Below are positions 5,010-30,277 of a DNA stretch of 39,246 bases, one piece after another. The translations under genes and the position numbers were made by a program. The stretch covers positions 1 to 39,246 of the forward strand of contig JAAYMA010000078.1 in NCBI GenBank assembly GCA_012521615.1. The letters run 5' to 3'. This DNA is from Clostridiaceae bacterium. GTDB lineage: Bacteria; Bacillota; Clostridia; DSM-8532. Below the pieces are notes generated by a model that was not told where the DNA came from, did no database searches, and saw only the letters and a program-made list of their open reading frames with translations. Positions within the stretch are counted from its first letter, which is position 1. Each line of letters starts with the position of its first letter.

Positions 5010-8000
5010 TCAAATTTCTCCACAAAGACGCAAAATTCGTTCAAGCATTGCAATGAAATCTCCATAAGTAATTATTTTATCCGGAAAAACTTGATTTATG
5101 CCATTTCCTTGAACTATGCCATTTTCCAATGCAAACTTAAATGCGTCCTCATATCTTGCATCAACCTGCGACAGATCACTATACCTCGCCCAGACTGAAG
5201 GTTTTGTCGGGACTGCGTTTTCGTAAGTTTTGAATTTGTATAAAGATACCAGCATTTTTACAGCCCAATCCCTTCGCGCCTGTGTATCAGAGGCTTCATG
5301 GAGCGAATCTGTCAGACCTGCTCTGTACGCTTTTATGTTCATGTCTGATTCTGTATACTGGGTTGGAACTACATCCAAAATCAGCTTTAATATTGCTTTT
5401 TTCGTAATAGGCCTTTCAGGTCTAAAATCTATACCTTCAAGACTTGACAGCTTATACACTTTTTGAATGTTCTCCATACTTTGTCTTATATATGATGGCG
5501 TACCGGCTTGAGGTGCCACTCCATACTCTGCAGCCACAATCGGACCCGGCCTGTCCAGCTCTCCTATAATTTGCGAGCTCAGATAATCAGTTCTGCTTGT
5601 AAGTGCGTACCAGCCCATTGTTGGATTAAAGCTGTAAGCTTTAATCTGATCCCGAATATAACTTGATAAGTTACTTATTGGAAGCTCTACCCTGATCGGA
5701 TATGCCAGCTCGTCTACAGTATAGTTTGTCCTTAAATATGAGACATTAATATCTGTTACAGGCGTTTTGATATCCATATTCTTTGAAGGCGAGTACCGGG
5801 TTGCAGGCGATGTGGTTTTTATGCTTATACTTAAATTATTATCCTGCCCCTTTTGCTTAAAATAGCGGTCGGTATGGAAAGTTCCAGGCCGTATAGTAAA
5901 CTGGCCCCAGGGAAGGACTACATACAGTTCCTTTTTGAGTTCCGCCAGGGTATCATAAACTATTGAACCCATATCCAAGCGAATTTGAGAAGTCCTTTCC
6001 GGAGGTTCAGACAAATCCAATTTTACTACAGGACCATATACACCTCGAATCCTTTCAGACAATAAATGAGCATGATCTCCCAGCGAGGTAATAACCCAGA
6101 CCCCATTTTCAAGCTCGGCAGGGATAATAAGCCCGGTGCCGGTAAGTTTTTCTGTCAGGTCGAAACTTCCGTCATACTCGCTTCTGCTTTTGTTGGTATA
6201 TACCAAAATGGTTTTTGTGGGCAGACTTCGAAGCTGAGTTGTATTGTCATAGGCATAAAGTCTTGCATAATACCCCCTGTTGGCTACAAGACCGGTTACT
6301 GTATATTCCCCTCCAGCCACCTCAAAGAGCAGGGCGTCCTCGAATTCAGAATTATCGGCAAACTCAAGGTAATAGGTGAGACCCGGAAGCGTGTTCCAGA
6401 CATATGTAATTGAACTTTCGGTGATACCGTTCAATTTAATGCCAAATCCTGTCGGCGGCGCAGGTGGCGTATAAGGTTCAGTCTTTATTATCAAGGGATT
6501 TGAAAACTCTGACTCTATAACTTGTCCGCCGCTTCCCCTGCTTATAGCTCTTATCCAGAAATAATAAACTGTGTCAGGCTCTAAATTCTCAATCCTTACA
6601 AAAGTATTGCGCCTGATTTCATCATAGCTTACCTCCCGGGTTATTGTTGCCGCGGATAAATCATCCACAAGCCCGCCTCTTATTTCATAGTCCATATCAA
6701 GATAAAATGTCCAGAAAAGGTCTACAAAAGTATCACCCGCAATCCCTCTCAAATCTGTAGGCACAGTGGGTGTGACCGGAATCTCGGGAATATCTGGAGG
6801 CGTAGTTATAACAAGCGGGTCGGATGGATCCGATGAATTTCCATTCTGGTTTTCAATAGTGACCCAAACAATGTAAGTAGTGTTGTGGGTTAAACCATCA
6901 ACTTTAAAAGTAAAACTCTGATCCTCCGCATCCTCGTGTATATTCGGTACAAGTACCGGATCCTGCGGAATTTCAAATGCTTTTATATCAGGTTGCATAA
7001 GATCGCTGTATGTAATATAGTCCCCATCCCGGTTTCCTCTCATCCGGATGGCATTTATTGCATCGTTGTATCTGACCACATGGGGAACAACTCTCCAGCC
7101 CGGCAAATAATTTACTACGGTACTCAATTTTTTGTCGGGATCATCATTTCTTAAAAGTTCATTATCTATATACTCTTCATAAGTAACATACTCCCAGCGA
7201 TTCCTGTCTTTATTATAAAGAGCATGCCACTTCTTCTTCAGCACCAGCTGGGCTTCATCGAAAGTTATACTTTCGTCACCTGAGGCCAGGCCAAAGGGAG
7301 GTACTGAAGGTGCTATGGGTCTGTCGGTACCAGTGTCAGGCTTGGTTATTATGACTTTTACAGCCTGTTTGGAAATATAGGGTTTGGTTATCATAAAACC
7401 GGTATCGGGACTTTCCACCAGAAAACTCTTCTTTGCATATATCACAAAATAGTAAGTGGAATTTGACTTAAGCCCCATAAGGTTATACCTGTAGCCGATA
7501 ACTTCACCTGTGAGTTTGTCCCGGATATGATTTGCTTCACTTATGGTCAGGTCCGAAGCTATTTTATAGTTGTTGGGAGGATTTGCAACATCTCTGATAT
7601 CTTCCACAAGGTATATATCGTAAGTTACATCATAGTCCACTTTTCCTTCCCCTGTGTAGGGAACACGCCAAAATACCGAAGCGCTGTTGGATGTCAAAAA
7701 GTCGTCATAATGCAGCGGCTCGGGATCGGCCTGAGGAAACGCATCCACTATTTCAGGAGCTTCAGGCTGCTGTGGAATTTGTTCTTTTAACATCACCCTG
7801 TTGTTGGACCTGAACTCAACAGGGGTCTCCTGACCAATGGGATAGGCCTTGGCGTCTATTTTAAAACTATAGGTATTGGGATCATCTTTTTTTACAATAA
7901 ATTCATAGCTGTCCTCTTCAGGTATAAGTCTGAAAAGTGTTCCCTGCAGCTCATCATTTACATATCTGTAAAGCTCATAATCCACCCGGGTAAAGGTCTC

Positions 8001-8867
8001 GCCCTTAACGATTGGGTTCCAGAAAAGTCTCCAAATTACATCGCCTTCTGCTGTATATCCTACCCTTTGGGCTTTAAGCAAAATATCTGTCTTTATTGTA
8101 ACCGGTCTGATTTCATTCACATCGGCACAGGCCACATCACTGTTTGGAAGAGGCACAACTTTAATAGAGTACTCCCTTCCCGGAAGGGCAGATGTATATA
8201 TGTATTCCAGTTTTCTTTCCTCACGGTTGACAGTAACAGGCGAATCTTCGGTTCCTATTTCGGATGCAATAATATCAGGAATCGGCGGCGGCTGGGTAAA
8301 GCCTTTTGTATCAGAAATAAGTATCCGATAGTTTATTCTACCCGAAGTATCCCAGACATCATCCCATTTGATTTTGATATAGTTGGTTCCAGGTATTAAT
8401 TCCAAAGACACATGCAGATTAGTCAGGAATTTTACATGGTTGGATTTTTGAGAAGTCACAGTATACTGCCCGTCAGCAGTAGTAGTTTTATAATAGGCTC
8501 TTGCATGGGCTTCATAAATTGTCCCGTGCTTAATTCCTTCAGGAATAAAATCAGTTACCTCATAACCTGTCGAATTTCCCGGCAGAGGAACCTGTATAAC
8601 GTCTACCAGCTTCCTGCCGGTACCATATTCTATCTCATTCAATCCAAAAGTGATGTACCTTTCTTCAGCCTCCGGCGGGAAATGTACAGGATCCCAGTTG
8701 ATTTGAGCATACCAATGGGAAACATACGCATCGTCATAATAACCTATATCAGTTACACGGTTTCTCTGAGGAGGCTGCAGAACTACCGGATCTGCAAACA
8801 CCAGATTTGCCGTTATACTTGCCATCATTACAACTATTAAAATAACTGAAACAATTCTACGCATCAT
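5010..8867 (-). CDS. Giant secreted fibronectin type III protein with SLH-like C-terminus
   Basis: A 1285-residue exported protein. It starts with a signal peptide (cleavage near VFA-D, residues 25-26). About seven fibronectin-III-like beta-sandwich modules follow, roughly 32-150, 150-260, 262-365, 368-500, 510-700, 700-805 and 805-905, seen from repeated patterns such as TYYFVIYAKK, TVYYFWIRA and YARLYAYD ending in proline-rich linkers. Residues about 905-1120 form a different beta-rich region. The last 170 residues resemble S-layer-homology modules, the best being the final one (YSDLSQVDARYEDAFKFALE, then GIVQG and the FPDKIIT segment). This suggests non-covalent attachment to the cell wall or S-layer. 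No catalytic domain, cohesin or dockerin was recognised. It begins 29 bases after the stop of the even larger upstream gene, so the two are co-transcribed paralogs. Function is unknown; a structural or adhesive surface role is inferred. Confidence 0.85.
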   Translation of the reverse strand: MMRRIVSVILIVVMMASITANLVFADPVVLQPPQRNRVTDIGYYDDAYVSHWYAQINWDPVHFPPEAEERYITFGLNEIEYGTGRKLVDVIQVPLPGNSTGYEVTDFIPEGIKHGTIYEAHARAYYKTTTADGQYTVTSQKSNHVKFLTNLHVSLELIPGTNYIKIKWDDVWDTSGRINYRILISDTKGFTQPPPIPDIIASEIGTEDSPVTVNREERKLEYIYTSALPGREYSIKVVPLPNSDVACADVNEIRPVTIKTDILLKAQRVGYTAEGDVIWRLFWNPIVKGETFTRVDYELYRYVNDELQGTLFRLIPEEDSYEFIVKKDDPNTYSFKIDAKAYPIGQETPVEFRSNNRVMLKEQIPQQPEAPEIVDAFPQADPEPLHYDDFLTSNSASVFWRVPYTGEGKVDYDVTYDIYLVEDIRDVANPPNNYKIASDLTISEANHIRDKLTGEVIGYRYNLMGLKSNSTYYFVIYAKKSFLVESPDTGFMITKPYISKQAVKVIITKPDTGTDRPIAPSVPPFGLASGDESITFDEAQLVLKKKWHALYNKDRNRWEYVTYEEYIDNELLRNDDPDKKLSTVVNYLPGWRVVPHVVRYNDAINAIRMRGNRDGDYITYSDLMQPDIKAFEIPQDPVLVPNIHEDAEDQSFTFKVDGLTHNTTYIVWVTIENQNGNSSDPSDPLVITTPPDIPEIPVTPTVPTDLRGIAGDTFVDLFWTFYLDMDYEIRGGLVDDLSAATITREVSYDEIRRNTFVRIENLEPDTVYYFWIRAISRGSGGQVIESEFSNPLIIKTEPYTPPAPPTGFGIKLNGITESSITYVWNTLPGLTYYLEFADNSEFEDALLFEVAGGEYTVTGLVANRGYYARLYAYDNTTQLRSLPTKTILVYTNKSRSEYDGSFDLTEKLTGTGLIIPAELENGVWVITSLGDHAHLLSERIRGVYGPVVKLDLSEPPERTSQIRLDMGSIVYDTLAELKKELYVVLPWGQFTIRPGTFHTDRYFKQKGQDNNLSISIKTTSPATRYSPSKNMDIKTPVTDINVSYLRTNYTVDELAYPIRVELPISNLSSYIRDQIKAYSFNPTMGWYALTSRTDYLSSQIIGELDRPGPIVAAEYGVAPQAGTPSYIRQSMENIQKVYKLSSLEGIDFRPERPITKKAILKLILDVVPTQYTESDMNIKAYRAGLTDSLHEASDTQARRDWAVKMLVSLYKFKTYENAVPTKPSVWARYSDLSQVDARYEDAFKFALENGIVQGNGINQVFPDKIITYGDFIAMLERILRLCGEI

Positions 8868-8896
8868 TTGCAGTTTTTACCCCCTGTCCTCCTGCT

Positions 8897-11800
8897 CTAT
8901 ATTTCTCCAAACTTTTCCAGGACCCTGGATACCATGTCCAGCATCATACCAATGCTTGTACGTTCCTCAGCCTTAAATGTCATGCCTTCGCTGAAATCTG
9001 CCAGCTCCAAATCGAAGCCCAGCATAACATATCTGTAGAGCTGTGGTTTTACATTACTGCCAATATTGAATATTCTGGACGGATTCATATAGGCAGGGTT
9101 TATATTAGCCTTGCTGCAGTATAATTTCACTGCCATGGCTATTGAGGCCTGGTTGTCCATATATCCGGTTAAATAAGCCGGAGTGATAACATCGTTCAGA
9201 CCAAGTACAGTAACTTTGTTTACAGGTGTAAGTCCTGTTACCTCATCATCCTTATGGGTAAGTACGGCAAACAGCATAACCGCCTGATTCCCGCTTATGG
9301 GATTGTCAGGATATATGGTTCCCGTACCGAATACCTTGCTCAAATCATAACGAGAGATCAGTTTTGAAAAATCTTTTTCAAACTGCGTTCCAGGCTGGAC
9401 AATGACTGAATCGGATCTTACAAAAACCGCATACTCTCCTGGTTTCTCTGCCCTGAAAAGCACATATTGCATTACATATGCTTTGGCTCCGGTTGCTTCT
9501 TTCCAGCCGGTACCGTAATTGGTGTAAGGAATGATATAACCATTTTGATATTGATATTCCAGCTTAACACCAATTCTTGCCGGAAACTCCCGTATTGTTC
9601 TTTTCACTGCAAAGTCCGGCAAATAACCACTTCCGCCGTCAATCACATCTTTTAAGTACCTGGATAATTCTTTCTCTACCCCGGCTATTACGCTCTTTAT
9701 CAAATCTTTCAATTCCACATGGCTTCTGTAGCTGTATCTTTCAAGAACAGAGAGTATCTTGGAAAGTTCCCTGTCAAGAATGCCGTATTCAAATGGTCCT
9801 GTCTCGTCAGGATTTTTAAGGATATTGTAAATTATATGGTTAATCTCCTGGTATGTAAGTCTGGAACCTATGGCTGTAGTATTCAGGTCAAAGAACTTTG
9901 ACAAGGCTGTAAACCCTGAGGGTATCTTTGTACCAGGGGTTGATTTCCTGTTTAAAGTCACAAGCAGCATGGCCTCTCTGGCACTGCCGGAAAGAGCCTC
10001 ATTCTTTAATGCTTCAAGATCAATGCTTCCCCGGTTCAATGTGATTTCAGCACCGGCGAATTTAAGATTGAGCCTGCTGTCATATTTCTCTATGGTCTCA
10101 AGAGTTTTATAAGGAATTAATATCTCGTAACAGGATGGATTTACAGCCTCATTGCTGAAATCAACTGTAATAGTAGATCCCCGGGCAACCTTAAGAAGCC
10201 CTGAAACCTTATCATCCTTTATAACAGCCCTGACTTTTCCATGGTCTTTAATATCAATCAGCCAGTACAGCTTCTTTGTAAGATTTTCTGCCTCCTGATC
10301 AAACCAATCTATTACCTCATCCCGTCTTCTTCCCTCATCGTAATCTCCCTGGGAAAAGTCGGTACGTGCAGTCACAGGTCCAATATGCAAAGATTCTTCC
10401 ATGTTATACGCCCATAGTTTGATATAGTAGTCGGTATTGGGTTTCAAATTGGTAATCTTCGCATAGTAAATGTAATAAGGCGAATTTTCCTGAACATAAA
10501 GATTGGTTTTCTCTCTGTAAAACCTGATTCTTCTGCCGTCAGGAAGATCATATCCATAATCTGTTCTTCCATAGCTGGCATAATTGAGCTTTCTATATTC
10601 AACCTCATAGTCAGTACGTATCTCCATAAAATAGTCGTAGGGGTCCCTTCCCTCCCACCTGACTTCAATCTCACTTAAACTGTCCCTTGTCTTGGCTTGA
10701 ACAGGATAGCCGGGACTGCTCTGCCACCTTTCATATCTCCCGTCATACCAGCTGTCGTTCAAGGTATTCTTGACCCGTATATCATACCACTGATCTGATT
10801 CCAGATTATAAATTCGGAAATAGAAGGTTGAGCCGTCTTTGACACAGGTAAACTGGGAACGGTTAAGCTGAACATACTCCGCTTCAGATGCACCTGTCTT
10901 TTTAATGAAGACCTGCATGGAATCGGCCGTTGCTCCCGTTAAGTAGCATTCTATATTAAACCCGATTTCCACATCAATTACAGCTTCCAGGAATCCGGGC
11001 GGTGCCACCATTTTGGTGGTAACAGGAATTGTCACCCAACGGCTCACTGTCTCAATAGACTTTCCTTCATCATCTGTAAGGTCCCTGTTCCTGACAGCTC
11101 TCAAGCTGAAGAAATAAACCCTGTTGGGTCTTAAGAAATCCCTTTCAATAGGCAGCGTCACTTTACCATTTTCATTGACTGTAATACCTAATCTTTCTGC
11201 TTTACTGCTGTTTACATCAAGATGTATCTCATAACTGTCCTCAGGCTCCCTGAAATCATGATAAACTTCCAAAAAATTATGATTGTAAGGATCGTCTTTA
11301 TACTCATCGACATCGGCATCTTTAGAAATACTCACAGAAGTGCATACCATTTCATAGGTAACATCCCTCTCGGCATGCAGCCATGTAAGTGTAACATACG
11401 CATCACTTAAAATGGGCTGACCATCTTCATCCAACGCAATGGAGAACTCTGACGGTGTCCTTGGATAGCGGATAATATCTTCAAGCCCGCCTGAGTCGAT
11501 TTTCGGGGTAGTAATGGCTTTAACGGCAGTATCTGCCGAACGGCCAATGACTACGCCATCTACCACAAGGGAGGCATGAGCTTTTATATAGTAAACAGTA
11601 TTAGGCAGAATTTCTTCGATCGAACCATCAGGTTTCTCAAAATTTTTAATAACTACACGATGTATCAGCTCCTGGACAGGATACTCAACCGTCAGCGTTT
11701 CAGCAAGCACAAAATCTTCAGAAGGGTTACGGCTGATAAAAATGCTGTACTGAATCTCTTTTCCACCACTGACATTGGTATACCTCGCCCAGTCGGCATC

Positions 11801-13921
11801 GGTTAATATACGCTCAAAACTTACTGATATGCCTTCAAGGAAAATATCCCCTGTAGCCGGATCAACATTGGTTTCAGGTTCGATACCAAGTATGATATCC
11901 GGCATTGGAACAGGCTGTTCAGTCAGAGGCCACGTAGTAAAGCTTATTATAGGCGACATGAAGGAAATACGGTTTCTGAGGTCGATGTTCAGACCTTCAG
12001 CATCGCCCCACACATCAGCGTCAATCTCGGCGTTGTCCCTCAGCCTTGAAGTAAATATTTGCATATAATATGTGGTATTCGGTATGAGGAAGTCAGGATA
12101 ATCCCCCGGCGTTCCGTCTTCACTGGGGTCTTCATTATTTTCAGCTGTCAAAGGTTTATCATTTACATAATCATAAAAGAGTTTGTCGCCTGGAATGGTA
12201 CACATTAACCGTCCATCCGGCGTTTCTGTGAAATTTTTCTTGCCGAGGACAAGTACACGCTTCTGTTTAACAGGCATATAAACAGGCAAACTCCTATCAA
12301 GACCGATATTCTTTGTTGGTGTTTCATCGGTTTCTGTATCAGGCAAATATGTAGAAAGGATTATATGGAATGTAATGTCATCATCAGTATATGGCTGGTT
12401 TCTGAAGTCGTCCCAGTCCTCAATCGCCCTCCAGGCTAAAGGCTTTTCAAAAGATATTTGTAAATCACTTAGCGGAATTTCGACTTCGCCCTGTGATATT
12501 TCTGTAAATGGTACTTCTACTTTTTTTCTGCCTGCGTATATGGTCTCAGCCTCTATCTCTTTCGGCATGGGCGGTTTACCCGTGTCAATGCCAAGGAGCT
12601 GCAGGTTAATACACAGTGAAGAACTTCTCGGCAGAGCTGAAGAACTGTCATAATAAACTACCCTGAAGTAATATTCAGGATGGGTAATATCAGGAATATT
12701 AATAGTTATAATTTCCGATCCATACTCATCTTCCTGGGGAAGCGACGTCTCAGGTATTTTTACCCATTTATCTGATTGGGAGTACAGATCATCTATCCTG
12801 GGTGCATACTGAACCTGATAATACAGTTGGGGATATACACCATTGGTGATTTTTCTGAACTTAACCTCCACCTTGTCAGTATCCACTTTTGATAATTCTA
12901 TCTGCATGGGTGTAAAGATGGAGCTCAGACTTGGTCCAACATTTGAAAAAGCATTATCTATATTACTGACCAAAAAACGGTTGCCCGAATCTGTCTGCAA
13001 TTTTGTCCTTCTTATAGGAATCTGATCTGAAGCTTCGTTCTTAAAAATTATACCGATGTTTGTATTCTCATACTCGGTGCCGGGCTCTATTCCCTGTTCC
13101 CTGGTCAAAAGAACCGAGACAAACCCGCCTCCGTCTGAATCAGGCTCACCATAACTTATACCCTCAACAATGACATCATCGCCTTGGTCATTACCTTCAA
13201 TAATCATGTGCCCGCCATCATAATCGGTATTAAAAACAAGCATTCTGGTTGAACCACGTCCAACTGTCATGCTTATCTGGAAACATGCCTTTTCTATCGG
13301 CACATCAGGCTCGGAAAGATCTTTCAAAACAGCTTTATCACCTTCATAAGAAGTCAGGTATGTGATCTTGCCTAAGCTTTCACTGTAAATGGTAGGTATT
13401 TTCCACTTAAGCCTTATTTTCGGATTCTCACCACTTTTCACAACAGCAGCCTCACCGGGCAAAGAACCTGAAGGTATAAGAACAGGGTCATTATCCTCAA
13501 TATCAGCCATCTTGGCCATTACATTGAAGGATTCGCCGGTAAAAGTCAGCCTTGCAAGATAATATACCTTTCCCACAGCTACGGGATGTTCATCAGTCAT
13601 ATTATGATACAATTCCATAGTAATGTCGTAAATATGATCCGGTTTCAAATCAAGACTGACAATAACTCTGTTATTGACATAGTTTTCTTCGCCTATCAGA
13701 TATGTCAGACTTCCGTCAGGATTATGATAATAAACCTCGGTTTTTGCAGGACGGGTAAGTGAATAGCAGCTTACCTCATACTTGTTTGTCAAAGTATTAT
13801 ATGAAACCTGAAGATTTATATCATCTGGCTGGGCAAAACTTTTCACCATAAATGGCATGCTTGTAAATATAAAAGCAAGTATCAGCAATAAAGAAATAAC
13901 TCTTTTAAATCCTGTTCGCAT
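8897..13921 (-). CDS. Giant secreted fibronectin type III protein, paralog of its downstream neighbour
   Basis: A 1674-residue exported protein with a signal peptide ending near SFA-Q (about residue 30). At least seven fibronectin-III-like modules are visible to about residue 1190, with recurring signatures such as NTTYYMQIFTSR, NTVYYIKAHA, NRVYFFSLRA and NTDYYIKLWAYN. A long region without Fn3 signature follows (about 1200-1560). It includes a segment ending GEYAVFVR, which resembles the domain preceding SLH repeats in other clostridial surface proteins. The C-terminus is degenerate SLH-like and closes with the same GEI ending as the downstream protein. An in-frame GTG at 13927 is possible, but GGAGGA touches it; the ATG at 13921 has the correct spacing. 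The gene lies 134 bases after the asparaginase-like pair. No enzymatic motif was found. Confidence 0.85.
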   Translation of the reverse strand: MRTGFKRVISLLLILAFIFTSMPFMVKSFAQPDDINLQVSYNTLTNKYEVSCYSLTRPAKTEVYYHNPDGSLTYLIGEENYVNNRVIVSLDLKPDHIYDITMELYHNMTDEHPVAVGKVYYLARLTFTGESFNVMAKMADIEDNDPVLIPSGSLPGEAAVVKSGENPKIRLKWKIPTIYSESLGKITYLTSYEGDKAVLKDLSEPDVPIEKACFQISMTVGRGSTRMLVFNTDYDGGHMIIEGNDQGDDVIVEGISYGEPDSDGGGFVSVLLTREQGIEPGTEYENTNIGIIFKNEASDQIPIRRTKLQTDSGNRFLVSNIDNAFSNVGPSLSSIFTPMQIELSKVDTDKVEVKFRKITNGVYPQLYYQVQYAPRIDDLYSQSDKWVKIPETSLPQEDEYGSEIITINIPDITHPEYYFRVVYYDSSSALPRSSSLCINLQLLGIDTGKPPMPKEIEAETIYAGRKKVEVPFTEISQGEVEIPLSDLQISFEKPLAWRAIEDWDDFRNQPYTDDDITFHIILSTYLPDTETDETPTKNIGLDRSLPVYMPVKQKRVLVLGKKNFTETPDGRLMCTIPGDKLFYDYVNDKPLTAENNEDPSEDGTPGDYPDFLIPNTTYYMQIFTSRLRDNAEIDADVWGDAEGLNIDLRNRISFMSPIISFTTWPLTEQPVPMPDIILGIEPETNVDPATGDIFLEGISVSFERILTDADWARYTNVSGGKEIQYSIFISRNPSEDFVLAETLTVEYPVQELIHRVVIKNFEKPDGSIEEILPNTVYYIKAHASLVVDGVVIGRSADTAVKAITTPKIDSGGLEDIIRYPRTPSEFSIALDEDGQPILSDAYVTLTWLHAERDVTYEMVCTSVSISKDADVDEYKDDPYNHNFLEVYHDFREPEDSYEIHLDVNSSKAERLGITVNENGKVTLPIERDFLRPNRVYFFSLRAVRNRDLTDDEGKSIETVSRWVTIPVTTKMVAPPGFLEAVIDVEIGFNIECYLTGATADSMQVFIKKTGASEAEYVQLNRSQFTCVKDGSTFYFRIYNLESDQWYDIRVKNTLNDSWYDGRYERWQSSPGYPVQAKTRDSLSEIEVRWEGRDPYDYFMEIRTDYEVEYRKLNYASYGRTDYGYDLPDGRRIRFYREKTNLYVQENSPYYIYYAKITNLKPNTDYYIKLWAYNMEESLHIGPVTARTDFSQGDYDEGRRRDEVIDWFDQEAENLTKKLYWLIDIKDHGKVRAVIKDDKVSGLLKVARGSTITVDFSNEAVNPSCYEILIPYKTLETIEKYDSRLNLKFAGAEITLNRGSIDLEALKNEALSGSAREAMLLVTLNRKSTPGTKIPSGFTALSKFFDLNTTAIGSRLTYQEINHIIYNILKNPDETGPFEYGILDRELSKILSVLERYSYRSHVELKDLIKSVIAGVEKELSRYLKDVIDGGSGYLPDFAVKRTIREFPARIGVKLEYQYQNGYIIPYTNYGTGWKEATGAKAYVMQYVLFRAEKPGEYAVFVRSDSVIVQPGTQFEKDFSKLISRYDLSKVFGTGTIYPDNPISGNQAVMLFAVLTHKDDEVTGLTPVNKVTVLGLNDVITPAYLTGYMDNQASIAMAVKLYCSKANINPAYMNPSRIFNIGSNVKPQLYRYVMLGFDLELADFSEGMTFKAEERTSIGMMLDMVSRVLEKFGEI

Positions 13922-14054
13922 TAGCACTCCTCCGATGGGATGATAAATTGGATAAAGGGTATACTTTACTATTATTTTATCGGCATCCTGGAGCCTTCAT
14001 ATTATGCGAACAGAATTACAATTCCTTTACACTTTCTATTGAAATGCTTCCTTT

Positions 14055-27319: not shown

Positions 27320-27817
27320 TTAATATCTGTATACAACTCTTGGTGCAAAGGTAAACAAGCTGTCCACCATTTTGGGAGTTGGCTCGAATAAAATAACTGT
27401 AGGTTCTCCTTTATTGATGTAGATAAACCAGACTTCTGCATTTTTGTTATTTGAAGAATAATCTTTTACATTCTTGCACTGTTTAATCTGGTTGGTATAT
27501 TTGTCTGAATTTACTCTGGCAACTACTTCAAACTCTTTTACATTACCGCTGAAAATACGCTTGCGCTTCCTCTGATTTATTATTTTGTCAATATCAAGAT
27601 CCCCATTGGTAACAGCATATTCAAATTCAATATTTCTGTTTGTAATGAGCCAGTACGCAAGGTATATAACCCCAACTACCAGAAAAGTCGAAAATCCCGG
27701 TACCAGAATTAAGAGCAAATAGCTTAATATAATAGCTGCAAGAACAATGCCGATAATAATAAGGAAGTCCAGTACATTCTTTTGTTTTTTTACGATTTTT
27801 TCGAGAAATATATCCAT
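27320..27817 (-). CDS. Small two-helix membrane protein, DUF6106-like
   Basis: A protein of about 165 residues with two adjacent hydrophobic helices (about residues 12-55) and a cytoplasmic beta-rich C-terminal domain containing FEYAVTNGDLDIDKII and RKRKRIFS. This arrangement resembles a clostridial family of unknown function (DUF6106), although the name is from memory. The frame can begin at a GTG (27832) that is fused to its own GAGGTG, or at the ATG at 27817, which is preferred though its spacing is long. It is a single-gene unit between two terminators. No function can be assigned. Confidence 0.7.
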   Translation of the reverse strand: MDIFLEKIVKKQKNVLDFLIIIGIVLAAIILSYLLLILVPGFSTFLVVGVIYLAYWLITNRNIEFEYAVTNGDLDIDKIINQRKRKRIFSGNVKEFEVVARVNSDKYTNQIKQCKNVKDYSSNNKNAEVWFIYINKGEPTVILFEPTPKMVDSLFTFAPRVVYRY

Positions 27818-27877
27818 ATCGCTTAAAATCACCTCTTCCCGTGTATGATTTTAACATATTCTTTAATGGCGTGGCAA

Positions 27878-27973: not shown

Positions 27974-28774
27974 TTATTCTGTTTGCTTTTGTAAAATGAT
28001 GTCAGACAATGTATGAATGTCCCCTGAACTTTGTATAGCCATTATGACCTGCTGCTCGTTTATGCTTCCGACTATGTCCATATCATTGTTGATGACATAA
28101 ATAATGTGAAACCTGTCGTAGTCGAGTTTCTTTATTAGCTCCCCAAGCGTGCAGTCTTCCAGGGCAACAATATGCCTTACCTCATAGATTCTTTTTTTCA
28201 AGATTCTTTGTCTACGGTTCAGGAAATTTTCAAGTTTCATAATTCTCATCTTCTCCTCAAGAACTTTAGTTGTGGGAAGGAATAAGGCAGCAATCAAAAA
28301 ACTCGGATTATACAAAAAAACAGCCTGTATCAGACCAATCACTGCCAAAACTACCTTTACTGTTATTGAAAGTTTTTTTATAAGTTTAAATGTCCTTGTG
28401 ATGCCTATCAATTTATAAAAAACAATTATAAAAATCTGGCTTCCATCAAGTGGGTAAACCGGCAGCATATTAAAAATCCCTATTGCCAGATTAGCCTCCG
28501 AAAGATTGTGTAAAAAACCGCTTCTGCCTATAAATAACATTGCAAGCAGAATGTTTCCCAAAGGACCTGCAATAAATATGGCCGCCTGCTTTTTAAAGCT
28601 CTTTGGACTTTGTTTAAGGCGTGCTTTGATACCAATTGGCGTGGGTCTGAAATCGTATAGCCTCGCTTTAAATATCAGTGCAGCAATAATATGAAATATT
28701 TCATGGGATATAACTGCTATAATGCAAGCCAGTAAAATTTTTATCAGGGGGTCCCTCCTAAGAAGCGTGAACAT
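27974..28774 (-). CDS. spoIVFB: SpoIVFB-like M50 intramembrane metalloprotease with CBS domain
   Basis: A 266-residue site-2-type protease. H24-E25-x-x-H28 is the zinc motif, and N102-x-x-P-x-x-P-L-D110-G provides the third ligand. Several membrane segments precede a cytoplasmic CBS-like domain (about 205-260), as in Bacillus SpoIVFB, which cleaves pro-sigma-K during sporulation. The N-terminus is unusually short: HExxH begins at residue 24, against residue 43 in B. subtilis, so the usual first membrane segment is reduced or missing. The ATG at 28774 lies inside the upstream gene (31-base overlap), and the nearest GGAGG is about 13 bases away. A start nearer AGGAGG at 28755-28760 would need a non-standard codon. 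Family and zinc site are clear; substrate and start are inferred. Confidence 0.85.
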   Translation of the reverse strand: MFTLLRRDPLIKILLACIIAVISHEIFHIIAALIFKARLYDFRPTPIGIKARLKQSPKSFKKQAAIFIAGPLGNILLAMLFIGRSGFLHNLSEANLAIGIFNMLPVYPLDGSQIFIIVFYKLIGITRTFKLIKKLSITVKVVLAVIGLIQAVFLYNPSFLIAALFLPTTKVLEEKMRIMKLENFLNRRQRILKKRIYEVRHIVALEDCTLGELIKKLDYDRFHIIYVINNDMDIVGSINEQQVIMAIQSSGDIHTLSDIILQKQTE

Positions 28775-29412
28775 GCTTTTATCAAATCCTCCACGCCGTT
28801 AAAGACTGTTTCGTACTCAATATGATTCTCCACCAGATGTTCCCTTAAAAAATTAAGTACTCCCGAGAAACTGTTAATTTTCTGCATAAGTACAACAAGA
28901 CCCAGAATAGCAAAACATGCAATGCACTGCTTTATAATCTTAATTGCCAGCAATGTGGCCCTGTTATCTTCTACTTCGGCTGAATATCTGGAAGGACTCT
29001 GATAAGAGGCTGTGCTCCTGCGGTATATACTGTCGCTCCATCGCCTGCCTGATTTGGTGACATCACGGAACATCGGGCTTTTGCCGCTTTCATACTTGTC
29101 CTCTTTAAAAAGATCTTTTAAAGGACTTACCCGCTCAATACTGCTTTCATTAATACTGCCGGAACCAGGATCTCCAAACAGGCTGTCTAAATCAGACCTG
29201 GCTTTTTTAGTATTTTGAGCGAAGAATTCATCAATATTATCCATATTTACTTCGGTAATGCTACTGACTTTGGATTTATCCTTCCGGTCCTCATTCTGAA
29301 ATACCTTTTCTGCAGTATCAGACTTTAAGCCGGTTTCCGGCTTATCATCCACTCTCCGTCTTTGGATATAGCTTCTGTATTCACTAAGGTTTTCAGCCTG
29401 CGCACCTCTCAT
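28744..29412 (-). CDS. spoIVFA: SpoIVFA-like protein lacking the LytM (M23) domain
   Basis: A 222-residue protein with a long hydrophilic, low-complexity N-terminal part starting MRGAQAENLSEYRSYIQRRR, one membrane segment (about 160-178, IACFAILGLVVLMQ), and only some 40 residues beyond it. Clostridial SpoIVFA proteins have the same opening and layout but normally continue into a LytM/M23-type domain in the intermembrane space, which SpoIVB cleaves to release SpoIVFB. Here the frame stops at GGTP, overlapping the M50 gene. AGGGATG lies seven bases before the ATG at 29412; earlier ATGs lack a good site. Assignment rests on the neighbour and topology, not on a signature motif. Confidence 0.65.
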   Translation of the reverse strand: MRGAQAENLSEYRSYIQRRRVDDKPETGLKSDTAEKVFQNEDRKDKSKVSSITEVNMDNIDEFFAQNTKKARSDLDSLFGDPGSGSINESSIERVSPLKDLFKEDKYESGKSPMFRDVTKSGRRWSDSIYRRSTASYQSPSRYSAEVEDNRATLLAIKIIKQCIACFAILGLVVLMQKINSFSGVLNFLREHLVENHIEYETVFNGVEDLIKACSRFLGGTP

Positions 29413-29574: not shown

Positions 29575-29967
29575 TCACCTGTTGGTTACAAGTTCACGCC
29601 AGTCAAAGTCTCCTCGTTCAAGACCATTTATGAGTATTTCTGCTGTAGCCAGATTGGTCGCAATAGGAATATTATTTGCATCGCATAGAGCAAGCAGCTG
29701 ATTCAATCCGCTTGAATGCAATTCATCAGGATCATGGAAGTATATAACCAAATCCATTTCATTGTATGCGGTCCGGGCAATTATCTGTTCTTCGCCCAAA
29801 CGACCGTAATCAAGGGTAAATACATCCAGGTTGGTGGACTCAGAAACAATTGCACCTGTACCTCCCGTAGCAAAGAGTTTATGCTTCGAAAGGATGAATT
29901 TGTATGCTATGCAAAAAGCCTCCATAAGCTCTTTTTTTCTGTCGTGTGCTATAAGCGCAATGTTCAT
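29575..29967 (-). CDS. mgsA: Methylglyoxal-synthase-like protein with altered active site
   Basis: A 130-residue protein clearly of the MgsA family, opening with NIALIAHDRKKELM and containing NIPIATNLATAEILI. MgsA converts dihydroxyacetone phosphate to methylglyoxal and phosphate. Compared with E. coli MgsA, H19, K23, T45 and T48 have equivalents (H8, K12, T34, T37). T47 is G36, S65 is Y54, the catalytic base D71 is E60 (GEEQ instead of GGDQ), and D101 aligns with G87. One residue is missing after the D71 site and about two near the PHDPD loop. Activity is therefore doubtful. GGGAGG precedes the ATG. Linkage behind minE is usual in Clostridia. The original enzyme role, or a new ligand-binding role of the fold, are both possible. 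Confidence 0.85.
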   Translation of the reverse strand: MNIALIAHDRKKELMEAFCIAYKFILSKHKLFATGGTGAIVSESTNLDVFTLDYGRLGEEQIIARTAYNEMDLVIYFHDPDELHSSGLNQLLALCDANNIPIATNLATAEILINGLERGDFDWRELVTNR

Positions 29968-29992
29968 AAGTTTCCTCCCAACACTAGAAGTT

Positions 29993-30277
29993 TTATCTGC
30001 CTGCATTTTTCATATTTTTGATTGGTATATTTGCTACCAGGGCCGGAACAACCCGTTCACCGTCATCGCTATTGGTCCTGGTAAGTTGTATATCCAAACT
30101 CTCTTCATCAATTTCCATATAATTTTGTATAACCTTAATTATCTCACTTTTAACCATTTCCAAAAATTGAGGCGAAACATTTGCTCTGTCATGTATTAAA
30201 ACGAGTTTCAGCCGCTCTTTTGCCACATCTTTGGAGGATTCCTTTCTTCTCGTTAATAGTCTGAACAAATCCAACAT
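29993..30277 (-). CDS. minE: Cell division topological specificity factor MinE
   Basis: A 94-residue MinE. The N-terminal membrane-binding and MinD-activating region (LDLFRLLTRRKESSKDVAKE, then RLKLVLIHDRA) and the C-terminal dimer domain (SPQFLEMVKSEIIKVI and EIDEESLDIQL) are complete. MinE stimulates the MinD ATPase and drives pole-to-pole oscillation so that MinC inhibits FtsZ away from mid-cell. Presence of MinE rather than a DivIVA-only system is common in Clostridia. AGGAGG precedes the ATG, and the gene lies 12 bases after minD. Confidence 0.96.
   Translation of the reverse strand: MLDLFRLLTRRKESSKDVAKERLKLVLIHDRANVSPQFLEMVKSEIIKVIQNYMEIDEESLDIQLTRTNSDDGERVVPALVANIPIKNMKNAGR

Follow-up and report, generated by a model that had tools for sequence, protein, structure and literature searches.

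The shortened gene pair in the window

The window, as we call the whole 39,246-nucleotide stretch analysed here (contig JAAYMA010000078.1 of a Clostridiaceae bacterium), carries a gene for a small membrane protein directly before a spoIVFB-like gene, an order that is shared by the loci of the same family (Table 1). We refer to the product of the first gene, which occupies the position of SpoIVFA, as the partner. The pair is flanked by a DUF6106 gene (27320-27832) and by a gene at 29575-30006 that we take, from its sequence, to be methylglyoxal-synthase-like. Elsewhere in the window, two very large adjacent frames of 1285 and 1676 aa (5010-13927, minus strand) look by eye secreted and repetitive.

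Table 1. Features of the partner and protease genes, in window coordinates
Feature	Position	Strand	Basis or remark
SpoIVFA-position protein (partner), 222 aa	28744..29412	-	ATG at 29412, TGA at 28746-28744; one membrane helix, no LytM/M23
Membrane helix core of partner, about residues 160-177	28882..28935	-	Hydropathy and conservation; helix in low-confidence AF2 model
M50/SpoIVFB-like protease from first ATG (28774), 266 aa	27974..28774	-	No TM1; CBS-like C-terminus
Same M50 gene from proposed CTG start	27974..28747	-	CCC-TGA in 13/13 g1 and g7 loci; g7 frames
AGGAGG, proposed ribosome-binding site of protease	28754..28759	-	Inside last partner codons
CTGA, proposed start overlapping partner stop	28744..28747	-	Conservation
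HExxH (HEIFH) of M50 protease	28691..28705	-	Sequence

The partner has a single strongly hydrophobic helix and, as the initial annotation had described, ends shortly past it, after about 45 residues, without a LytM domain. It matched no Pfam family above the cut-off and none at E 0.01, and no NCBIfam model; Pfam gave no LytM/M23 domain, and there is no room for one ahead of the protease start. The one helix predicted from hydropathy also appears in an AF2 model of the last 81 residues, which is of low confidence (pLDDT 63) and was used for helicity only. Placement of the C-terminal part outside is an assumed orientation. Another M23 sporulation protein might shield the protease in trans, given that clostridia are described as having M23/LytM proteins of sporulation, the CD0125 family among them (in passages of PMC3533761). 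Counter to this, no M23 gene adjoins the pair among the window's frames, and we consider the arrangement very improbable.

The second gene encodes an M50 protein by its PF02163 match (42.4 bits against a cut-off of 27.2), with the catalytic motifs HExxH and PxDG kept. A CBS domain (PF00571) was matched weakly, under the cut-off, and residues 200-266 of the AF2 model align with CBS domains. If the first ATG (28774) is the start, the gene overlaps the partner gene by 31 nt and HExxH falls at residue 24; the equivalent position in B. subtilis SpoIVFB is 43-47, from the catalytic E44 given in passages of PMC11486902. In all 24 family loci that have both genes, the region before HExxH in which TM1 would be expected either has too few residues for a score or reaches no more than 0.77. 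A sample of 60 loci was taken from 37 other families of Clostridia, and HExxH was located in every one. All 60 have a TM1-like stretch, with an open frame of 34 or more residues ahead of HExxH and a score of at least 1.2 (median 2.23).

In the AF2 model of the protease (12 sequences, pLDDT 78, pTM 0.58), HExxH lies in the first helix. The best structural match is SpoIVFB (8vjl/8vjm; Z 15.0, rmsd 4.7, 251 aligned), at Z values of a size that calls for care with helical folds, and Foldseek likewise puts SpoIVFB first (E 5.9e-11). Residues 7-263 of the model pair with residues 25-288 of SpoIVFB; M. jannaschii S2P is matched from its residue 33 by model residues 3-185, and RseP from its residues 1-3 by the model from residues 3-8 on. 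The six-helix SpoIVFB architecture, TM1 included, appears to be absent from this protease.

Distribution across the family

All 24 family loci with both genes, which represent six genera and include the window, combine a LytM-less partner with a TM1-less protease, and in all of them the partner stop lies at, or a few bases from, the proposed protease start (at L011 the 5' end of the partner is beyond the contig). A protease match was found in 11 of 14 genomes of the genus and in 25 of 32 genomes of the family, in G007 by the CBS part only; the partner was found in 28 of the 32. The pair of the family is also present at loci L064 and L065, which, by their identical partner sequences, look like the records behind G023 and G019.

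Its occurrence in 24 of 24 loci confirms that the shortened pair in the window is real and beyond chance. Given a draft assembly of 133 contigs, one could suspect an error of sequencing or assembly, or a deletion that happened recently in this organism, but the same anatomy in 23 other family genomes rules these out, and we regard their probability as close to nil. The initial annotation had treated the pair as peculiar to this organism and had named LytM-less partners in all close relatives as the finding that would speak against it; this is what the family loci hold.

The partner is also maintained. Its start region and C-terminus are conserved across the genus, and a conserved core of about 105 aa is found in g2, g3, g4 and g6. 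The dN/dS ratio over the partner gene is 0.16-0.27 in five pairs, which indicates purifying selection; a sixth pair (G007-G010) is saturated.

The border between the two genes

The initial annotation placed the protease start inside the partner, with HExxH at residue 24. This holds for the ATG at 28774, but conservation suggests that the true start is CTG 28747, which would reduce the overlap to 4 nt and move HExxH to residue 15. The suggestion draws on a conserved CCC-TGA, on the AGGAGG upstream, and on start codons that lie at this point, or adjoin it, in other genera. Specifically, the partner ends in CCC-TGA in all 13 g1 and g7 loci with both genes, which places a CTG of the protease frame across the stop; these loci are related and do not represent 13 independent events. 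Of the proline codons in 25 genes of the window 24% are CCC, as are 20 of 88 elsewhere in the 12 other partner genes. The AGGAGG of the window lies six bases upstream of CTG 28747, and the corresponding place is GG-rich in all 13 loci, reading GGGGGG rather than GGAGG in L006, L007, L008, L049, L050 and L051. The three g7 loci have no ATG, GTG or TTG between the upstream stop and HExxH.

At the border in the 11 loci of g2, g3, g4 and g6, nine have TGATG, L062 has TAATG and L058 has GTG. The coupled border is conserved, in a form that varies by genus. Where the catalytic part of the protease was lost (G007), the partner ends in CCA-TAA, which fits a CTG start; in G030 and G031 the partner ends in CCC-TGA even though the protease has been lost, which is of no help to it. 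A -1 frameshift fusing both genes was considered and rejected, because the GGGGGGA run is found in the six loci with GGGGGG but, by eye, is absent from the window and the other g1 loci, and is thus not conserved.

Possible kinship of the partner with SpoIVFA

To compare proteins at this position, we aligned profiles of the helix and linker with hhalign. The family partner matched the Clostridia LytM proteins at 92% with a score of 34.8 (best of 15 linker shuffles, 29.3), a match to which the helix contributes much. Other short partners matched the LytM proteins at 97% (54.6; best shuffle 30.2), and these in turn matched six Bacilli SpoIVFA proteins at 94% (36.0; best shuffle 19.5). The direct match of the family partner to Bacilli SpoIVFA is weak (4.6%, 17.3; best shuffle 13.1), close to the controls, which reached at most 16.4 with reversed targets and at most 16.7 with four unrelated membrane segments. 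Thus, the family is tied to SpoIVFA only via the other Clostridia proteins. In passages of PMC3533761, the Clostridia proteins at the place of SpoIVFA are treated as a non-orthologous displacement with unrelated N-terminal parts. Contrary to this, the profile matches suggest that Clostridia proteins before spoIVFB share helix and linker with SpoIVFA.

LytM-less partners elsewhere in Clostridia

Protease matches were obtained in 185 of 293 genomes, 14 of them in the window's family, and the 60 sampled loci come from the 171 outside it; they were hand-picked among the matches listed, one to few per family, and are mostly long matches. The partner is long with a helix at 44 of the 60 and short at 9 (7 families), after removal of a spurious 100-aa frame at L196 from the short set. 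No partner was assigned at the remaining 7 (L215, L217, L218, L229, L230, L234 and L242). At L234 (G246), a 144-aa M23 frame without a membrane helix (980-1414, gene orientation) lies before SpoIVFB; its N-terminal part may have been split off or lost. PF01551 was matched by 44 of 54 proteins scanned (53 partners and that of the window), a bare count without protein names. By eye, short partners also occur in Clostridium loci L067, L068, L073 (C. tyrobutyricum) and L066. In a separate contig scan, most of the matches listed (at least 80 loci) were unrelated M50 proteins.

A quick M50 tree, in which long branches are flagged, was labelled for LytM at 74 of its 81 rows (10 named rows among them by eye). 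The label needs about 8 changes among the 74 rows; the starred branches by themselves require at least 5 when the short group is set against all others. The nine rows of the clade beside the window's family all have LytM, the two being joined at 86, a branch that is not starred. Repeated loss of LytM is the natural reading, with a change count that gives no direction.

These patterns bear on how the family's pair arose. The initial annotation explained both truncations by one deletion. A single event across the junction is still a simple way to account for both, since they co-occur only in this family among the loci examined. A history in two steps is just as possible, for at all nine short-partner loci sampled in seven other families LytM is absent and TM1 of SpoIVFB is kept. 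In the sister family, represented by one genome (G032), the partner also lacks LytM. LytM was probably lost before the two families split, to judge from that one sister genome, and the protease TM1 probably before the window's family diversified. The pair looks like an old, inherited redesign of the sporulation switch, not an error or a recent deletion.

Relatives without an intact protease

In four genomes (G007, G030, G031 and G032) the partner persists but the protease is missing or partial, without HExxH, and G001, which is 99% complete, has neither gene. In G030 and G031 (L271 and L270, minus strand), SpoIVFB is gone from between the partner and the DUF6106 gene, where about 200-240 nt remain. 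In G007 (L015/L272) it is cut to an 87-aa CBS-only frame (L272 1526-1789) with a ribosome-binding-like AAGGAG before it, and in G032 (L167 1483-1926) to a 147-aa frame that has the last membrane and CBS parts, lacks HExxH and overlaps the partner. In all five genomes the only other M50 genes are two housekeeping-like ones, plus one hit under the cut-off in G030. SigK with a pro-sequence is retained in G001, G007, G030 and G031. Some of the protease losses may reflect draft genomes.

Perhaps the partner also acts independently of SpoIVFB, or else the protease losses are recent. In the stronger form of the first case, the partner would now serve mainly a task unrelated to SpoIVFB, for example the placing of engulfment proteins, a role that SpoIVFA has in B. 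subtilis according to parts of PMC3533761. Arguing for this, G007 and G032 keep the partner beside a mere remnant of SpoIVFB, and between G030 and G031, where SpoIVFB is gone, partner dN/dS is 0.19 for the whole gene and 0.13 for the last 81 residues. Counter to this, the border with SpoIVFB is conserved in every two-gene locus of the family, and selection in G030 and G031 may predate the loss of the protease. We consider such a change of function quite improbable.

Sporulation pathway content

SpoIVB is present in the window's own genome and in 29 of the 32 family genomes, and BofA in the own genome and in 27 of the 32. SigK scored above the cut-off in 13 of 14 genus genomes, and in those 13 the pro-sequence sought since the initial annotation is found ahead of the FPQPL region. 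In the own genome, an ATG that follows a GAGG lies 27 residues before FPQPL, which we take to be the B. subtilis length. Because BofA, SpoIVB and pro-sigma-K with its pro-sequence are present, the pathway, judged by its genes, has not been lost, and the earlier proposal that the checkpoint may have gone is not borne out.

The suggested search for a second SpoIVFB in the own genome found none; its two other M50 genes lie in housekeeping-like settings, one presumably between dxr-like and ispG-like genes and the other near what we take to be trpS-, dgkA- and ybeY-like genes. We rejected these as a second SpoIVFB, as both occur in all 8 genomes compared, including the five without intact SpoIVFB.

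How the pair may work

In B. subtilis SpoIVFA, as described in sections of PMC3808539, SpoIVB cuts at 104, 116, 146 and 154 and CtpB at 131, LytM spans 160-255, and inhibition is relieved when 131-154 is removed. Counting residues past the helix, the family partner ends near B. subtilis 135. Given that LytM and, by length, most of the segment 131-154 are absent, release must differ; shedding of LytM in the B. subtilis manner is impossible here, as had been pointed out in the first reading of the locus.

We lean towards an intact, translationally coupled mini-SpoIVFA/SpoIVFB pair that works with altered release. The partner would consist of a membrane helix and a short outer linker, and SpoIVFB would begin at its catalytic helix. 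Through helix and linker, together with BofA, the partner may hold SpoIVFB and keep pro-sigma-K away until the forespore acts; release would then be a cut of the short linker, of BofA or of both, by SpoIVB or a CtpB-like protease, and cuts at sites comparable to 104 and 116 would still be feasible. Arguing for this are the constancy of the pair across the family, purifying selection, the coupled border, the presence of BofA, SpoIVB and SigK, a predicted fold that follows SpoIVFB from residue 25, and a helix-plus-linker match to Clostridia LytM proteins that exceeds shuffles. Arguing against it, the direct Bacilli match is barely above the membrane-segment control, a partner that ends near 135 may not inhibit at all, and four genomes keep the partner without an intact protease.

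In another reading, the checkpoint is relaxed: with LytM and the inhibitory segment gone the partner no longer gates, SpoIVFB is active once made, and sigma-K is timed by transcription or by BofA alone. The short linker, set against the B. subtilis data (parts of PMC3808539), is in keeping with this, as are the precedent for looser sigma-K control in some clostridia (passages of PMC9042235) and the several relatives that have no protease altogether. It is rather unlikely, as selection still acts on the partner and most family genomes keep SpoIVB and BofA.

In sections of PMC12632252 (2025), crosslinking places BofA beside the SpoIVFA helix, and models have the linker of SpoIVFA lying in the TM1-TM6 gate of SpoIVFB. 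A gate of this kind could be split in the family, with the partner helix in the place of TM1. The helix is assumed to run from inside to outside like the missing TM1, and it would be translated from one coupled message with the protease. First helix and regulator would then be combined in one separate subunit, and its cutting or displacement would open the protease. We consider this version unlikely. The published B. subtilis model has the SpoIVFA helix packed on TM4.

Comparison with known systems

Passages of PMC9042235 (2022) describe spore-forming clostridia without recognisable SpoIVFA, and those of PMC12632252 (2025) only two spore-forming clostridia with one; in both, whether and how clostridial SpoIVFB is regulated is posed as a question. 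Within the open-licence PubMed Central literature, we did not find a pair of LytM-less partner and TM1-less SpoIVFB described. The partner resembles SpoIVFA of Bacilli (B. subtilis) in lying directly before spoIVFB and in having one helix followed by a linker that is presumed to lie outside; it differs in lacking LytM, in a much shorter linker and in a direct profile match that is not convincing. With the Clostridia LytM/M23 membrane proteins before spoIVFB it shares place, single helix and an apparently related linker profile, whereas the M23 domain found there (44 of 60 sampled loci) is absent from it.

The protease has the HExxH, PxDG and CBS-like C-terminus of SpoIVFB (8vjl/8vjm), but starts at the equivalent of residue 25 and is missing TM1, one side of the proposed gate. 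Like RseP/RasP-type M50 proteases it has HExxH in the first helix, with a model that aligns from RseP residue 1-3; unlike them, it lacks PDZ, has a CBS-like end and stands in a spoIVFB setting. Taken together, the comparison suggests that several separate lineages of Clostridia lack LytM, and that one family has also lost a gate helix of the protease. As deletion variants that occur in nature, these proteins offer a means to ask on which region of SpoIVFA the control of the protease depends.
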